A stretch of DNA of 27,156 bases from a virus. Shown here one piece after another: positions 20,977 to 26,138 of this stretch. The stretch's first letter is position 1. Each line of letters begins with the position of its first letter. A model generated the notes under the pieces. That model searched no databases and was not told the origin of the DNA. It saw nothing but the letters and a program-made list of their open reading frames with translations. Where the stretch lies: positions 1 through 27,156 of the IMG/VR virus record IMGVR_UViG_3300048042_000018; one strand, written 5' to 3'. A program made the position numbers and the translations under genes.

Positions 20977-21005
20977 AGAATACCAGGAGGGCGTTAGAAT
21001 GTCAA
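20977..21005 (-). promoter_or_regulatory. Leftward promoter before the gene at 20959
   Basis: On the minus strand TTGACA (21005-21000), 17 bases, then TATTCT (20982-20977). The same -10 hexamer and spacing occur in the rightward promoter at 24795-24823. The predicted start near 20970 leaves a short leader carrying the AGGAG SD. The -35 box overlaps the last bases of the HNH gene. Confidence 0.72.
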
Positions 21006-21551
21006 GCCAATAGTTGTATCGTTGATAATACGGATCTTTTTTATGAAAGACTCAAAGTCCCGGCTTCCTTTGAGGAAATTACAGTCGCCGCAACAAGAAC
21101 AGCTATTATCAGGCGTATATCCTAAATTATTATCTTTTCGATCCACGCCGTTATAAATGTACGGCTGTCTACCCCCAGTCTTTATTAATTCTTGAGCTGG
21201 CGCTGCCCCGCAATAAAAGCAATTATTTTTTGTGAGTGCCGCAAACATTTCTTTAGGCAAACAAAAACTAAGGTGCCTTTTTTCCGCTCCTTCTCTGTAC
21301 TTCTTGTATAGGCTATTAAAACTACTCTCAGTTGGATCTTCAAACGCAAACTTCGATGGCTTGCCGATCATTCTCTGCCTGGACAGCTCATCTCTAAGAC
21401 ACCCACAGGATCTAATTCTACCGCTATTGACGCACCACGGTCGTTGAAATGTCACTTTACCGCACTGACACTTATATTCGGACAAGAAAATCTTGCCAAT
21501 TTTTTTACGGCTCCGGCCTACTAAGGTAAGTCTTGACTTATTCTCTTCCAT
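20994..21551 (-). CDS. HNH endonuclease of homing type
   Basis: The 185-aa product has two parts. The N-terminal zinc-like domain has C28-x-C30 (KCQCGK) and C49-x-C51 (RSCGCL), a pattern often found at the start of phage homing nucleases. The C-terminal HNH domain has a Cys pair CFYC (C111, C114), the GVDRKDNNLGYTPDN core (D137 in the first position, N149 central) and CCGDCNFLKGS (second Cys pair C154, C157). It sits as a single gene between the membrane block and early genes, and base usage is richer in A/T than its neighbours, consistent with an inserted selfish element. The upstream spacing shows no strong SD. Confidence 0.87.
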   Translation of the reverse strand: MEENKSRLTLVGRSRKKIGKIFLSEYKCQCGKVTFQRPWCVNSGRIRSCGCLRDELSRQRMIGKPSKFAFEDPTESSFNSLYKKYREGAEKRHLSFCLPKEMFAALTKNNCFYCGAAPAQELIKTGGRQPYIYNGVDRKDNNLGYTPDNSCSCCGDCNFLKGSRDFESFIKKIRIINDTTIGLTF

Positions 21552-21552
21552 A

Positions 21553-22035
21553 TCAAAAACTCAATCCTATTGAAAATCCGCCTGTTTTATTAGTGAGGCC
21601 GAATACTCCGACTACGACTGGGCCAAGGATATTACGAGAGACACTGAGGCCATAAATAGGAACACCAGGAGCAGTGATTGCCATTCCCGCGAGGAACTGC
21701 ATGGTGAGCTTGCTGGAGCTTTTATCGACTTCTTTGCTCTTCGTTTGGGTAATGTCGGTGTTATCCGTACTCTTGTCAGTGCTGGTGATTCCTCGGTCAT
21801 CAGTAATTGTGGTAGTCCGTGTTTTCGTACCATCTGGTGATACGACTTCAACCGTCGTATATTTTTTGTGATCTTGTTCCTTTTTCGTTTGGTCATCGGT
21901 CTTCTTTTCTACGGTTACCGTCTGCACTACGGTCTTGATTTTCTCTGGTCCTGTCCACCGTCCAGCAGCAAACGCGAGCAGGAGTCCCAAGCAAACGAAT
22001 AGTACGAGGCGCTTGTCAGTGGTATCTGGTGTCAT
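21553..22035 (-). CDS. Membrane-anchored protein with hydrophilic domain; lysis or envelope candidate
   Basis: From ATG 22035 (AGAAGG four bases before) the product is 160 aa. A single N-terminal membrane helix (RLVLFVCLGLLLAFAAGRW, about 9-27) is followed by a long K/T/D-rich hydrophilic region (DQTKKEQDHKKYTTVEVVSP) and a C-terminal hydrophobic glycine-rich part (LSVSRNILGPVVVGVFGLTN). Anchor plus charged stalk suggests exposure on the periplasmic side; i-spanin-like roles are possible, but there is no proof. It overlaps the next gene's stop region by 4 bases. Confidence 0.6.
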   Translation of the reverse strand: MTPDTTDKRLVLFVCLGLLLAFAAGRWTGPEKIKTVVQTVTVEKKTDDQTKKEQDHKKYTTVEVVSPDGTKTRTTTITDDRGITSTDKSTDNTDITQTKSKEVDKSSSKLTMQFLAGMAITAPGVPIYGLSVSRNILGPVVVGVFGLTNKTGGFSIGLSF

Positions 22036-22229
22036 ACGTCCTTCTTTTGTGTTGAAATGTAAGCGTGCGGTCCCCAAAGTGGTGCAAGGAGCATGGCGTA
22101 GGCAGAAGCGTCTACATGCCCTAGTGACACCGGGGAGCCGTTGATGCTGAAGTTCACTCCTTCAACGAGGAACTTCAGGATGCAGGCGATGGACGCGACT
22201 ATGGCGAGTTTTTCTAGGTTTGTCGTCAT
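22032..22229 (-). CDS. Small membrane protein (65 aa)
   Basis: The product starts MTTNLEKLAIVASIACILKF and has one or two hydrophobic segments (residues 8-20 and 42-55), ending in a basic tail with KKD. Short phage proteins of this pattern (EKLA..ILKFLVEG, SLGHVDA, GPHAYI) are known to me but are uncharacterised. Holin or a lysis accessory is the obvious guess in a cluster of small membrane proteins. SD is weak, but a direct repeat lies at its start. Confidence 0.6.
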   Translation of the reverse strand: MTTNLEKLAIVASIACILKFLVEGVNFSINGSPVSLGHVDASAYAMLLAPLWGPHAYISTQKKDV

Positions 22230-22258
22230 ACTTTTTCACAGTCATCCTACTTTTTCAC
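22229..22258. repeat. Short direct repeat spanning a stop/start junction
   Basis: TACTTTTTCAC occurs at 22229-22239 and again at 22248-22258, 19 bp apart. On the leftward mRNA one copy ends the 58-aa gene (GTGAAAAAGTAG) and the other immediately precedes the ATG of the 65-aa gene. It may be chance or a trace of slippage or duplication. Confidence 0.45.
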
Positions 22259-22423
22259 GAAAGCAGCTATGGCCCTTTCTCTTGCGGATAGTTTAGGAGA
22301 AGGATTTATAGAGGCGTTGAGTTTTCTTAGCTCTACATTTACTTTTTCAATGCTTTCAGTTATAGCTAAGGAACATCCAAAAAGCATTAATACTACGGAA
22401 GCAGTCAAAAGTATATATTCCAT
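22247..22423 (-). CDS. Small membrane or lipoprotein-like protein (58 aa)
   Basis: ATG 22423 has GAGGG upstream with four bases between. The product is MEYILLTASVVLMLFGCSLA, then a helical charged part (ITESIEKVNVELRKLNASIN) and KLSARERAIAAFVKK. The hydrophobic start ends in LFGC, close to a lipobox, so an outer-membrane lipoprotein (o-spanin-like) is conceivable; the start has no positive charge, which argues for a plain membrane helix. The longer open frame to 22468 lacks an SD. Confidence 0.55.
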   Translation of the reverse strand: MEYILLTASVVLMLFGCSLAITESIEKVNVELRKLNASINPSPKLSARERAIAAFVKK

Positions 22424-22430
22424 AAATCCC

Positions 22431-22784
22431 TCAAAATGGTATCGACAAGGAAGCCTTGTCGAGTTCAAGTTTCAGTTTCACTCCAGCGCCTAATGACACC
22501 GGAATTTGTCTCCGCTTGTAGATGAAGTAGGGCATCACAAGCTTGTCGAGATCATACGGCTTCGCGTAGGTGCCGACCATGTAGCCCTGGAAACGATTCG
22601 CATAGCCTGATGCGCCGCTCTGGACATATCCCGCTTCAATCGCCTTGTCGAGCGGCGGAATGCCGAAGGAATAGGGGAAGGAATCTGCCTGTGAACGCCA
22701 TGCGCCGCATATAGCAGCGACTACCAGAACAACTATTCCTAGCACGATCACTCTATTTAAGATCTCATAGATCAAATGCTTCAT
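22431..22784 (-). CDS. Single-span membrane protein with an aromatic-rich exported domain
   Basis: The 117-aa product has one membrane helix (RVIVLGIVVLVVAAICGAW, about 11-29), with a positively charged end inside, then a Tyr/Pro/Gly-rich domain (FPYSFGIPPLDKAIEAGYVQ, SGYANRFQGYMVGTYAKPYD). A periplasmic location is likely. It is coupled to the protease gene by ATGA, so the two may act together. No domain is recognised. Confidence 0.62.
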   Translation of the reverse strand: MKHLIYEILNRVIVLGIVVLVVAAICGAWRSQADSFPYSFGIPPLDKAIEAGYVQSGASGYANRFQGYMVGTYAKPYDLDKLVMPYFIYKRRQIPVSLGAGVKLKLELDKASLSIPF

Positions 22785-23497
22785 AGCTTCTCCAAGAATG
22801 CTTTGACAAGTTCTGGGGGAACGATACCGCCTGAAAACTCACCCTGCTTGACACCGCCCTGCGAAGTCATCACAGACACCAGAAGTCCTGAATCATCCAC
22901 GATAGGAGAGCCGCTTGACCCGCCACGGCTATAAAGATTAGTAAGGACATTAACCCAATGAATAGTGCAACTCTTAACAGTACCATCATGATAATAATTG
23001 ATAGTGGTGTTTTCGGGACATTTGCGAACAAGCTCGATAGGGACTTCATAGGACCACTGAAACCTTTCTTTTGTGAAGCCATGACTCTCTGTCAAGATAC
23101 CTTCCGGGTATCCGAACGTCATCACATCCCGGACGGTCTGGTCTTTGGCGAGGGTGAGGGTGGGGGTATCGTCGTGGATGCGGACGGCGCAGAGGTCGGC
23201 TACGGCGTCCCGGAGGACGATCATCCCGGTCACTCGTTCACCGTTCGTGAGGGTGCCGGTGAGGGAGGAGTCATCATCACTCTCCATCCAACAGACATGC
23301 CAGTTGGTGAGGATATAGTGCCGCCCAGATTTGCCTGCGACGATGGAGCCTGTCGCACCCCCTTTGATGTTCACCAGGGCGTCAAGAACTGTCTCTACTG
23401 GTCCTGCATTGGCGATCTTGCCGATTGCGAGTGTTGCGATCACCAGGAAGAATCCGAGGGTGAAGGCGTAGGCTAGGGCGTTGATGAAGTTCTTCAT
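22781..23497 (-). CDS. Secreted trypsin-like serine protease
   Basis: The 238-aa product carries a complete chymotrypsin-fold triad: H67 in LTNWHVC, D101 in AVADLCAVRI and S195 in GGSSGSPIV (GxSGxP). A basic N-terminus and hydrophobic segment (residues 9-29), ending in a possible signal-peptidase site ANA-G, predict export. C69, C103, C160 and C177 could form disulfides. Such enzymes are common in cells (DegP-like, without PDZ here) but unusual in phages; roles could be envelope disruption, virion processing or attack on a host surface protein. It overlaps the Rrf2-like regulator gene by 4 bases (ATGA). Confidence 0.86.
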   Translation of the reverse strand: MKNFINALAYAFTLGFFLVIATLAIGKIANAGPVETVLDALVNIKGGATGSIVAGKSGRHYILTNWHVCWMESDDDSSLTGTLTNGERVTGMIVLRDAVADLCAVRIHDDTPTLTLAKDQTVRDVMTFGYPEGILTESHGFTKERFQWSYEVPIELVRKCPENTTINYYHDGTVKSCTIHWVNVLTNLYSRGGSSGSPIVDDSGLLVSVMTSQGGVKQGEFSGGIVPPELVKAFLEKL

Positions 23498-23928
23498 GCC
23501 ATACCTACCACGTTCATCGAGTTCATGATGTGAGTCTCGGCCGATACGAGTTCTCGTACAACGTCGACTATGCGACGAGTCAAGACTTGAGCTTGGGCGA
23601 AGTAGAGATCTTGCACCGCCATGGCGAGTGCTCGATGTTCAAGTTGGCCGCGCTTCAATACCGCCATGTCCCTTGGATCGAGGAGCTTGTCCTGCTTCAG
23701 TGCTGCGAATACGTCACCGATGGTGCAGTTCGTGTTGAGTTCGTAGCCGCCTGATGGACCGCGAATGCTCCTGATGACACCGGATAAACGGAGCTGACGC
23801 GCGATCTGCTCCAAGAAGTTCTTCGGTACGGAAATGTTCTTCGAGACAATGTCAACGGTCGATCTACCCGAACGACTCAGGTAGATCACGAAGAGCAGGC
23901 CGTATTGAAGTTTCTTGTTAATTCGCAA
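23494..23928 (-). CDS. Rrf2/IscR-type transcription regulator
   Basis: The 144-aa product has the Rrf2 pattern: KLQYGLLFVIYLS, then a winged helix-turn-helix (ISVPKNFLEQIARQLRLSGV) and the wing RSIRGPSGGYEL, then TIGDVFAAL. It lacks the three-Cys Fe-S cluster motif of IscR or NsrR (only one Cys near residue 68), so it should be redox-independent. The start is a TTG at 23928, the only initiator that leaves the family N-terminus (MRINKK) whole; a GAGGG lies 12 bases upstream. It may control the divergent region at 24472-24829 or the palindrome at 3563-3580, or interfere with a host Rrf2 regulon. Confidence 0.85.
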   Translation of the reverse strand: MRINKKLQYGLLFVIYLSRSGRSTVDIVSKNISVPKNFLEQIARQLRLSGVIRSIRGPSGGYELNTNCTIGDVFAALKQDKLLDPRDMAVLKRGQLEHRALAMAVQDLYFAQAQVLTRRIVDVVRELVSAETHIMNSMNVVGMA

Positions 23929-24100
23929 GCAGTTTACTTACCCTCATTACGTTCTGGCGTCTTCGCGCAGCACGGTTAAATTGTTGTCGTTCGACTTGCG
24001 TCTTTGGGTCGAGGCGGTAAAACATGGCAGGCTCTGTCTTGACGTACTTACGGACTCGGCCCTGCATACGTCTACGGCTTGACTTTTCAATCTTGTTCAT
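23918..24100 (-). CDS. Very basic small protein (60 aa)
   Basis: The product, from ATG 24100 with AAGGAG eight bases upstream and TAATG coupling, is highly rich in R and K (SSRRRMQGRVRKYVKTEPAM, RAARRRQNVMRVSKLL). It looks like a nucleic-acid-binding or host-targeting early protein. It overlaps the Rrf2-like gene by 11 bases. The function is unknown. Confidence 0.65.
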   Translation of the reverse strand: MNKIEKSSRRRMQGRVRKYVKTEPAMFYRLDPKTQVERQQFNRAARRRQNVMRVSKLLAN

Positions 24101-24471
24101 TAGCAAGGCTCCTTGTTGACTGCGGGACCGACAGGCTTGATCAGGCAGTAGTATTCCATCGGTTTACCGACGAAAGTGTGCATAGCACCGGAGAAGGCGG
24201 CGGCTATCGCCTCCTGCGTCGCCTGCTTGACTTTTGCAAAGTTTTGAGAGGTAAAATTGTACTTCTCTTCTTTTGTTTTACATGAGTCAGGAGCAGGCGC
24301 TGCAAGAGATCGATAAATGAGCATACCAGTGAACCGAGCGAGAAACATGACGGCGATCTTACCGGACAATGCATTCCCTTGAGCATCTATTAATTTATAT
24401 GTCTCAGTGACGAGCGTTGCGGCAAGTTGATCGGGCGTCTGCGTTTGGAGTTGATTCACCGGGCTACTCAT
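24100..24471 (-). CDS. First gene of the leftward operon, hypothetical (123 aa)
   Basis: The product is mostly helical (PDQLAATLVTETYKLIDAQG; IAVMFLARFTGMLIYRSLAA) with QNFAKVKQATQEAIAAAFSG and a C-terminal Cys. I do not recognise a domain. The start codon lies 7-10 bases after a -10 box of the promoter at 24479-24507, with no SD, so the mRNA may be leaderless. As the gene nearest the control region, it should be expressed very early. Confidence 0.7.
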   Translation of the reverse strand: MSSPVNQLQTQTPDQLAATLVTETYKLIDAQGNALSGKIAVMFLARFTGMLIYRSLAAPAPDSCKTKEEKYNFTSQNFAKVKQATQEAIAAAFSGAMHTFVGKPMEYYCLIKPVGPAVNKEPC

Positions 24472-24478
24472 TATGCAT

Positions 24479-24507
24479 AGGCTATACCAGATCGATCAAG
24501 TTGTCAA
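24479..24507 (-). promoter_or_regulatory. Leftward promoter P3 of the main leftward operon
   Basis: On the minus strand TTGACA (24507-24502), 17 bases, then TAGCCT (24484-24479); an overlapping alternative -10 is TATAGC (24486-24481, 15-base spacer), the same hexamer used at 12645-12650. The start would fall at about 24472-24474, within three bases of the ATG at 24471. It lies downstream of the leftward terminator, so it can drive the operon without interference from P1 and P2. Confidence 0.6.
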
Positions 24508-24510
24508 GAC

Positions 24511-24545
24511 AAAAAAAAGAGGCCGTGGGGGGTTCACGGCCTCTT
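24511..24545 (-). terminator. Strong leftward intrinsic terminator
   Basis: An 11-bp perfect stem AAGAGGCCGTG (24517-24527) pairs with CACGGCCTCTT (24535-24545), loop of 7, and is followed in the leftward direction by eight Ts (24518-24511). In the rightward direction there is no U-tract. It lies between promoters P2 and P3, so it should end transcripts from P1 and P2 rather than from P3. Confidence 0.85.
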
Positions 24546-24583
24546 CGTCGGAGGAGAGAAGGTGGACACCGGTGTGTCCTGAC
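24511..24583 (-). ncRNA. Putative small RNA of about 70 nt from P2
   Basis: A transcript from P2 (start near 24583) to the terminator would be roughly 70 nt. It would fold a 5' hairpin GGACAC-N4-GTGTCC (24579-24564), then a single-stranded stretch at 24563-24546 rich in CU, then the terminator stem. The open part, with its flank, reads CCACCUUCUCUCCUCC, complementary to purine-rich SDs such as GGAGAGAGG before the 81-aa gene at 17637. No ORF with an SD is present in it. Production and function are untested. Confidence 0.45.
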
Positions 24584-24589
24584 TTAACC

Positions 24590-24618
24590 AGGTTATCAGA
24601 CACCGTAGGGAATGTCAA
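24590..24618 (-). promoter_or_regulatory. Leftward promoter P2
   Basis: On the minus strand TTGACA (24618-24613), exactly 17 bases, then TAACCT (24595-24590), preceded by TG as in an extended -10. Its -35 box forms one arm of the inverted repeat at 24611-24640. Transcripts meet the terminator at 24545-24511 after about 40-70 bases. Confidence 0.55.
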
Positions 24619-24640
24619 GCGTTATTTTGTTCTTGACATT
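24611..24640. repeat. Inverted repeat of two TTGACA boxes facing outward
   Basis: AATGTCAAG (24611-24619) and CTTGACATT (24632-24640) are exact complements separated by 12 bases. Each arm contains a -35 hexamer, one reading left (P2) and one right. The rightward one lacks a suitable -10 at 16-18 bp. It looks like an operator covering a -35 box, or a hairpin in the P1 transcript. Confidence 0.6.
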
Positions 24641-24985: not shown

Positions 24986-25218
24986 TCACAGCAATTAGAC
25001 TTGGGATTATCGTGTTCATTGGGTACTGCGTCATCCGTCTGGTGAGTAGCGGAGATGCCTCAGACTATGACAGGGAGTACCGCTGCTTCTATGGGAACGA
25101 CATGAGCGAGGTCTACCCCATCATGGCGAAGAGCCAAGCAGAGGCCGAGGATAAGCTCAGTCGCCAGTACCCGCAGTCCTATGAGTCTTTTTGCAGGTTG
25201 GGGAAAGAAGTGCGCTGA
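24982..25218 (+). CDS. Small membrane-anchored protein (78 aa)
   Basis: The product starts MITAIRLGIIVFIGYCVIRL, a membrane helix of about 17 residues, followed by a soluble part with two Cys (YRCFYGND; SFCRLGK) and an acidic helix (SQAEAEDKLSRQYP). The soluble part reads like a small alpha/beta domain, perhaps binding a host membrane partner. It is coupled to both neighbours (ATGA before, TGATG after) in the rightward operon. Function unknown. Confidence 0.68.
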   Translation: MITAIRLGIIVFIGYCVIRLVSSGDASDYDREYRCFYGNDMSEVYPIMAKSQAEAEDKLSRQYPQSYESFCRLGKEVR

Positions 25219-25451
25219 TGGGAGAATTTAAGCGATGGGATAGAGTCATTCGAGCATTGCCTCCTGATGATGTTAAAGACGATGGCACGTGGGGGGACGT
25301 AGGTAAGGAGTACACCGTCAATAGCTGTAGCGGAAGTTGCCTGAAGATTTTTGACATTAAGGCTTTCTGTTCTACAGAGAAGTTTAGGCTGTCTCCGAAT
25401 AAGACCAGCCTTTTGGAGAAGCTCTTGAGGGGGGATGATGATGACCTTTAA
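25218..25451 (+). CDS. SH3/KOW-like paralogue 1 (77 aa)
   Basis: From ATG 25218 (sharing a base with the previous stop, TGATG) the product begins MGEFKRWDRVIRA, has a central GKEYTVNSCSGSCLKIFDIK, and ends EKFRLSPNKTSLLEKLLRGD. It matches the next two genes: an F-K-x-W/F-D-R/K-V-I start, a Y-x-V strand, an F-R/K-L-S/A turn and an L/V-E-K/R-I/L-L tail. An extended frame upstream to 25191 is read inside the previous gene and is not used. The fold looks like a small beta-barrel with a C-terminal amphipathic helix. Confidence 0.75.
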   Translation: MGEFKRWDRVIRALPPDDVKDDGTWGDVGKEYTVNSCSGSCLKIFDIKAFCSTEKFRLSPNKTSLLEKLLRGDDDDL

Positions 25452-25668
25452 GAAATTTGATCGAGTAATCCGTGTGAACGACAGCGAATGGAGTCACGAG
25501 TACGGGGTAAAAGACGGCGTTTACGTCGTCAAAGATACTAACGAAAGTGGAAATTTAATCCTTTTTGAATGCCCAAAAGGAGGCGCCGCAGACTGCAATA
25601 GTTTTAAGCTTGCAGACAAGCAGTTGACCAGGCTGGAGAGGATACTGTATGGCGACACCGAAGACTGA
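25441..25668 (+). CDS. SH3/KOW-like paralogue 2 (75 aa)
   Basis: Three ATGs in a row occur (25435, 25438, 25441); the third best fits the spacing from AGGGGGG, so 25441 is used. The product begins MTFKKFDRVIRVNDSEW, has YGVKDGVYVVKDTNESGNLI and ends SFKLADKQLTRLERILYGD. It is clearly homologous to paralogues 1 and 3 at both ends. It overlaps the previous gene by 11 bases and the next by 20, as though each copy carries its neighbour's ribosome site. Confidence 0.75.
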   Translation: MTFKKFDRVIRVNDSEWSHEYGVKDGVYVVKDTNESGNLILFECPKGGAADCNSFKLADKQLTRLERILYGDTED

Positions 25669-25912
25669 GTTCAAGAAGTGGGACAAAGTGATCTGCATAG
25701 ACAATTGTGAAAATGACTTTTTAAAAGAGCACCTCACCCTTGGAGCTGAATATGTCATCAAAAAAGTTGAGATATACGACAAAAATTCGACTGAAAAAAA
25801 TGAAGGAGTGTATCTCATTTTTTTTGGCCTGGAGCATCTGTCATGCTATCTATGGCGATTCAGGCTGTCCGAGAATAAAACTACTGAAGTAGAGAAGATT
25901 TTGTATGAGTAG
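25649..25912 (+). CDS. SH3/KOW-like paralogue 3 (87 aa)
   Basis: The product begins MATPKTEFKKWDKVICI and has LGAEYVIKKVEIYDKN in the middle, with a longer loop than the others. It ends WRFRLSENKTTEVEKILYE, which matches paralogues 1 and 2. GAGG lies seven bases before the ATG. The insertion in the middle may be a variable surface loop. It overlaps the next gene by 8 bases. Confidence 0.75.
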   Translation: MATPKTEFKKWDKVICIDNCENDFLKEHLTLGAEYVIKKVEIYDKNSTEKNEGVYLIFFGLEHLSCYLWRFRLSENKTTEVEKILYE

Positions 25913-26138
25913 GTTCAGGATAGGAGATCGAGTGATGGCGGCGACGAACAACCAGCGATACTGCGACGTATACGAGGGTATGCTCGGTGTTTGCGACGAG
26001 AACAATGATCCTTGCCCTTTCATCAGGTTCGACGATGTGCCCGGAAGGGTGTCGGTTTGGGAGGAAGACTTATTGCGAATCACCGGCAAGGAAACTGAAC
26101 TCGAAAAACTTTTGTTGTGGACAAACTATGGAAAATGA
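25905..26138 (+). CDS. SH3/KOW-like paralogue 4 (77 aa)
   Basis: The product begins MSRFRIGDRVMAA, followed by YEGMLGVCDENNDPCPFIRF, and ends LLRITGKETELEKLLLW plus a short tail. The GD-R-V start and the TGKETELEKLLLW tail make it part of subfamily B, together with paralogue 5 and the minus-strand copy at 12865-13110. The overlap with the previous gene is 8 bases and with the next 11 bases. Confidence 0.78.
   Translation: MSRFRIGDRVMAATNNQRYCDVYEGMLGVCDENNDPCPFIRFDDVPGRVSVWEEDLLRITGKETELEKLLLWTNYGK

Follow-up and report, generated by a model that had tools for sequence, protein, structure and literature searches.

The window, that is, the whole stretch of DNA analysed here, is a complete IMG/VR virus record, 27,156 bases long, and represents, as its DNA polymerase, helicase, terminase, UvsX and SbcCD genes show, part of a tailed-phage genome. 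As several relatives span 56-59 kb compared with the 27 kb of the window, about half of the genome is probably missing, and no endolysin gene was found in this fragment. One operon on the minus strand contains, in the order of transcription:

24479-24618, minus strand: leader upstream of p123 (promoter and terminator scan)
24100-24471, minus strand: p123, first gene of the block and kept in relatives (comparison of relatives)
23918-24100, minus strand: 60-aa basic protein, encoded between p123 and Rrf2 by a gene that shares TAATG with p123 and runs into the start of Rrf2 (sequence)
23494-23928, minus strand: Rrf2-family winged-helix protein, 144 aa, TTG start, one Cys (PF02082, 5.2e-14)
22781-23497, minus strand: HtrA/trypsin-like serine protease, predicted to be exported, 238 aa, without PDZ domain (Trypsin_2, profile, AlphaFold2/Foldseek)
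22431-22784, minus strand: p117, predicted membrane-anchored protein, ATGA-coupled to the protease (sequence)
22247-22468, minus strand: p73, small predicted membrane protein with low GC3 (0.31) (sequence)
22032-22229, minus strand: p65, small hydrophobic protein, family of eight (relatives)
21553-22035, minus strand: p174, N-terminal transmembrane segment (TM), polar linker and C-terminal beta domain (alignment of 19, AlphaFold2)

The protease and Rrf2 genes overlap in GGTATGGCATGAAGAAC, the ATGA at 23497-23494 that the sequence-only reading had taken as the junction of a translationally coupled pair, and the protease and p117 genes are likewise ATGA-coupled, sharing 22784-22781. The small predicted membrane or exported proteins which that reading had placed behind the protease are indeed there as p117, p73, p65 and p174, whereby the true start of p73 may be an ATG near 22423. 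An HNH nuclease gene and p132 follow, and the operon continues into the UvsX-SbcCD genes. The leader possesses a sigma70-like promoter (TTGACA at 24618, spacer 17), a strong terminator (24546-24516) and a second TTGACA at 24507 immediately before p123, with the count of sigma70-like promoters in the scan barely exceeding that of shuffled sequences. The promoters and the run into the UvsX-SbcCD genes suggest early or middle expression.

The succession of promoter, terminator and promoter in the leader (24480-24620) might represent an attenuator or a small RNA. A stem resembling that of the leader is located upstream of p123 also in G013, G017, G021, G023 and G027; the leader alignment has a mean column identity of 45% with no firm conserved RNA, and no Rfam match was found. 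The HNH-type endonuclease gene (20994-21551) between p174 and p132 has a GC content of 0.41 versus about 0.5 in its surroundings, is missing at that place in relatives and is likely a homing insertion. On the plus strand, four successive small ORFs (25191-26138) with similar FKKWDRVI-like starts are possibly a tandem family, and the ORF at 26303-26710 matches a family of putative lipoproteins that carry collagen-like repeats and are encoded in relatives such as G018. A long ORF antisense to the protease gene (22958-23476, plus strand) resembles an artefact and has no match in the related contigs.

Both the protease and the Rrf2 ORF are located where the sequence-only reading had placed them, and their matches to curated families are far too strong to be fortuitous. 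The claim of a complete protease is borne out by a Trypsin_2 match (E=1.1e-12) above the Pfam cut-off and by the catalytic triad H67/D101/S195, which resides within TNWHVC, VADLCA and GGSSGSP, respectively, and is invariant in all nine proteases of the lineage, the other eight of which are only 15-27% identical to the window protein. A profile of the nine proteases retrieves HtrA/DegQ structures at 8e-16, and the AlphaFold2 model (mean pLDDT 73, pTM 0.69) has as its best Foldseek match DegS without its PDZ domain (1.6e-8). No PDZ domain was matched in the protease, the chain of which ends directly after the catalytic domain; the protein is thus HtrA-like, but not HtrA proper, and is related to the HtrA/Deg proteases (MEROPS S1C).

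A single hydrophobic stretch from residue 3 onwards, an AxA-type site (A29-N-A31, recognized by eye) and a helix predicted by AlphaFold2 for residues 2-30 lead to the prediction that the protease is exported. The signal peptide proposed previously is therefore likely as far as export is concerned, and the segment may be either a cleaved signal or a retained anchor. In several relatives (G013, G020-G023) the protease carries a lipobox in place of this signal, so that export to the periplasm or the membrane, by hydrophobic helix in the window and by lipobox in these relatives, would be a common theme.

The 144-aa protein belongs to the Rrf2 family by its PF02082 match and by a family profile that retrieves IscR at 1e-10 and CymR at 5e-10. 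It had been described as cysteine-poor, and indeed residue 68 is its only Cys, with nothing comparable to the ligand set of the IscR cluster; none of the Fe-S ligand cysteines of the IscR/NsrR type is conserved in the family either. As the GPxGG wing motif is conserved throughout the family and these ligands are absent, DNA binding is plausible, but Fe-S sensing is not. No Rrf2 operator emerged, the palindromes of the p123 leader in the window not being common to the relatives.

Related contigs were gathered via DNA polymerase and UvsX and then read as contigs, and a scan with p132 added one further contig, the 5.6-kb fragment L147. DNA and protein searches of the phage records with the 4-kb region and the protease, and single-protein scans of IMG/VR with the protease or Rrf2 as query, gave no match. 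Both families had been considered unusual in phages, which holds on the sequence level, with no match for the protease in 50,697 phage records and eight weak matches for Rrf2, all in unannotated records, although HtrA/trypsin-like proteins do occur among predicted phage structures. In the UvsX tree the window groups weakly with G013, its closest phage relative (83% identity, support 80/67). Naming of a host from genome matches was abandoned as insufficient, the sole strong match being one Omnitrophota MAG contig (60%), besides a weak Patescibacteria one.

Rrf2 is present in eight relatives (G013, G014, G017, G020-G023 and G041), and in all eight the gene order is p123, Rrf2, a small gene with in most cases a hydrophobic product, and then p174, with p65 directly after Rrf2 in G013. 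In none of them does Rrf2 adjoin a protease, the proteases being located elsewhere, and no homologue of p117 was found in any related contig. In the window, the protease, p117 and p73 interrupt the p123-Rrf2-p65-p174 block. The linkage of protease and Rrf2 is thus not conserved, Rrf2 being part of another, older block of genes, and the proposal of a protease with its own regulator fails on synteny, even though the triad is conserved in the homologues. It is more likely that Rrf2 regulates the older operon to which it belongs.

Proteases of this type are not restricted to the window. Trypsin/HtrA-like proteases above the Pfam cut-off occur in 13 contigs including the window, and also in G018 as a whole protein. 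Relatives often encode serine proteases for export whose folds are unrelated to one another, namely HtrA/trypsin-like, signal-bearing ClpP-like and subtilisin. The HtrA/trypsin-like and ClpP-like genes mostly adjoin XhlA-like, holin-like, lysozyme, M15 endolysin or DUF5675 genes, as in the following contigs:

G013 and G018: protease gene overlaps an XhlA-like gene
G036: XhlA, hol71 (holin-like, small two-TM protein), protease, M15 endolysin
G032 and G034: protease abuts hol71
G020-G023: protease abuts a GH24 lysozyme
G030: protease overlaps DUF5675
G028: helicase, exported ClpP-like protein, lipoprotein, M15
G015: ClpP-family protein with signal-like N-terminus overlaps DUF5675

A test of the distance between protease and lysis genes over 12 contigs, which kept the unfavourable contig G031 with the genes at opposite contig ends, gave a combined p of approximately 2.7e-5, a value to be read as an estimate only, since the contigs are related and the gene set was chosen after viewing them. 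Exceptions are the proteases of G027 and G008, which lie away from lysis genes, and that of G037 at 3 kb distance. No contig was found to encode both an HtrA-like and an exported ClpP-like protease (one further ClpP-like match in G014 was left out), as if the two filled one slot. Neither G006 nor the 5.6-kb L147 was found to contain such a protease, which is therefore dispensable; in L147, XhlA-lysozyme is located about 1.3 kb from p65-p174. In G020-G023, p174 is immediately followed by a gene for a subtilisin-like protein, the N-terminus of which resembles a signal (L049:16823-17518); in G013 and G018 one is encoded elsewhere. The DUF5675 genes that adjoin exported proteases (L043:3461-3862, L083:5513-5929, L134:8433-8861) are candidate lysis genes. 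Slightly upstream of p174, relatives without Rrf2 and p65 harbour a ClpP-family protein without a clear signal (L081:7264-7743, L084:3551-4033, L087:7441-7953 and others).

Although UvsX weakly groups the two phages, the protease of the window is not the sister of the XhlA-linked protease of G013 in the protease tree. This observation suggests that the window protease was acquired separately, and the link to lysis is consequently one by analogy rather than orthology.

With respect to the remainder of the block, p174 belongs to the core genes of the phage group and is found in most relatives. Its N-terminal TM and polar linker are followed by a four-stranded C-terminal beta domain, with a final Phe in all 19 aligned members, whereas Leu is the last residue of the copy in L147, which was found later; by its modelled architecture the protein could link inner and outer membranes. 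It does not qualify as a spanin, given its N-terminal TM, C-terminal beta domain and lack of both a lipobox and a spanin profile match; a YadA-type anchor, considered for the four C-terminal strands and the final Phe, found no support among Pfam or PDB profiles, and the good Foldseek matches were uncharacterized phage proteins only. p65 resembles holins by size and topology only, with neither a PHROG holin match nor a profile link to hol71. The two co-occur in no contig, as might be expected of alternative forms of a single function, but they show no profile kinship and the pattern may follow phylogeny.

The reading we favour, at slightly below an even chance, is that the protease cuts proteins of the host periplasm or outer membrane and thereby eases lysis. 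Made in the infected cell and exported through the Sec pathway, it would either be released into the periplasm or remain tethered to the inner membrane through the helix at its N-terminus, and with an HtrA/Deg-type catalytic domain without the PDZ regulator it would probably be constitutively active. Cleavage of periplasmic and outer-membrane proteins would weaken the envelope, facilitating final lysis, itself the task of distinct holin, endolysin and trans-envelope genes. The protease, p117 and p73 would have been inserted into the older block p123-Rrf2-p65-p174, the transcription of which Rrf2 most likely controls by DNA binding; Rrf2 would adjoin the protease without being its dedicated partner, and the inserted genes would fall under its control by position. 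The envelope-acting role suggested previously is supported, and its option of help in lysis receives indirect support by analogy with the relatives. While most likely, the lysis role is insecure, because the protease appears to have been acquired separately and sits in an operon that may be expressed early or in the middle phase. A wider version, so far a rather doubtful one, is that exported proteases are a recurrent and exchangeable lysis function, with HtrA-like, exported ClpP-like and subtilisin folds digesting envelope proteins and working together with p174, which would tie both membranes via its C-terminal beta domain with an outer-membrane-type Phe signal.

The next most likely reading, still an unlikely one, is superinfection exclusion or receptor shaving, where an early exported protease with the membrane proteins p117, p73 and p65 would cut a surface or periplasmic protein used by later phages, or a defence sensor. 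The early-type promoter and the place where the replication operon begins are consistent with it, as are sporadic presence and separate acquisition, typical of accessory genes, but the exported proteases of the relatives cluster at lysis genes, several of them downstream of tail genes. Manipulation of the host stress response, whereby a DegS-like anchored protease without PDZ domain cuts an anti-sigma factor or a quality-control protein and changes the envelope stress response, could explain that DegS without PDZ is the closest fold and that the N-terminal helix is as in DegS; this kinship is generic to HtrA proteases, though, with DegQ and HtrA1 scoring as well, and we regard the possibility as slim. 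Equally improbable is a true protease-regulator module with Rrf2 sensing the envelope or redox state and controlling the protease: the ATGA overlap within a single operon speaks for it, but the pair was found nowhere else, Rrf2 in the eight relatives adjoins p65/p174 or another small gene, it has no Fe-S ligands, and synteny largely refutes the module. A virion protease for assembly or entry seems the least probable, as the signal or lipobox N-termini of most members are unsuited to a virion protein made in the cytoplasm, even though the related protease of G008 comes after a likely capsid gene.

Cumulatively, the pairing of Rrf2 with the protease is to be corrected to membership of Rrf2 in an older block, and exported proteases as a recurrent lysis accessory are a wider pattern of more interest than the pair itself. 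Compared with known systems, the window protease shares with HtrA/Deg proteases (DegS, DegQ) the catalytic fold and profile, the triad, predicted export and a DegS-like N-terminal helix, while it is a phage gene product without PDZ domain and of only about 20% identity. Rrf2 has the winged helix with GPxGG wing motif of IscR and CymR, but is phage-borne and devoid of Fe-S ligand cysteines. Like the unimolecular spanin gp11 of phage T1, p174 is a single beta-rich protein by which the inner and the outer membrane might be connected, although its topology is reversed (N-terminal TM, C-terminal beta domain) and it lacks a lipobox (PMC6139136). In Listeria, a secreted metzincin and a TIMP-like lipoprotein of phage origin, under CI/Cro-type control, raise the sensitivity to phage lysis (PMC8235301). 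This pair is likewise an exported protease of phage origin beside regulators that promotes phage lysis, but involves a metalloprotease, a Gram-positive host and CI/Cro-type regulators; the likeness is one of role and does not speak for kinship with the window protease, but sets a precedent for an exported protease of a phage acting in lysis (PMC8235301). The known lysis genes of phages of Gram-negative bacteria target the inner membrane, peptidoglycan and outer membrane by holin, endolysin and spanin (PMC6139136). If exported proteases, interchangeable across folds, recur in the lysis regions of this phage group, envelope proteins would be a further lysis target.
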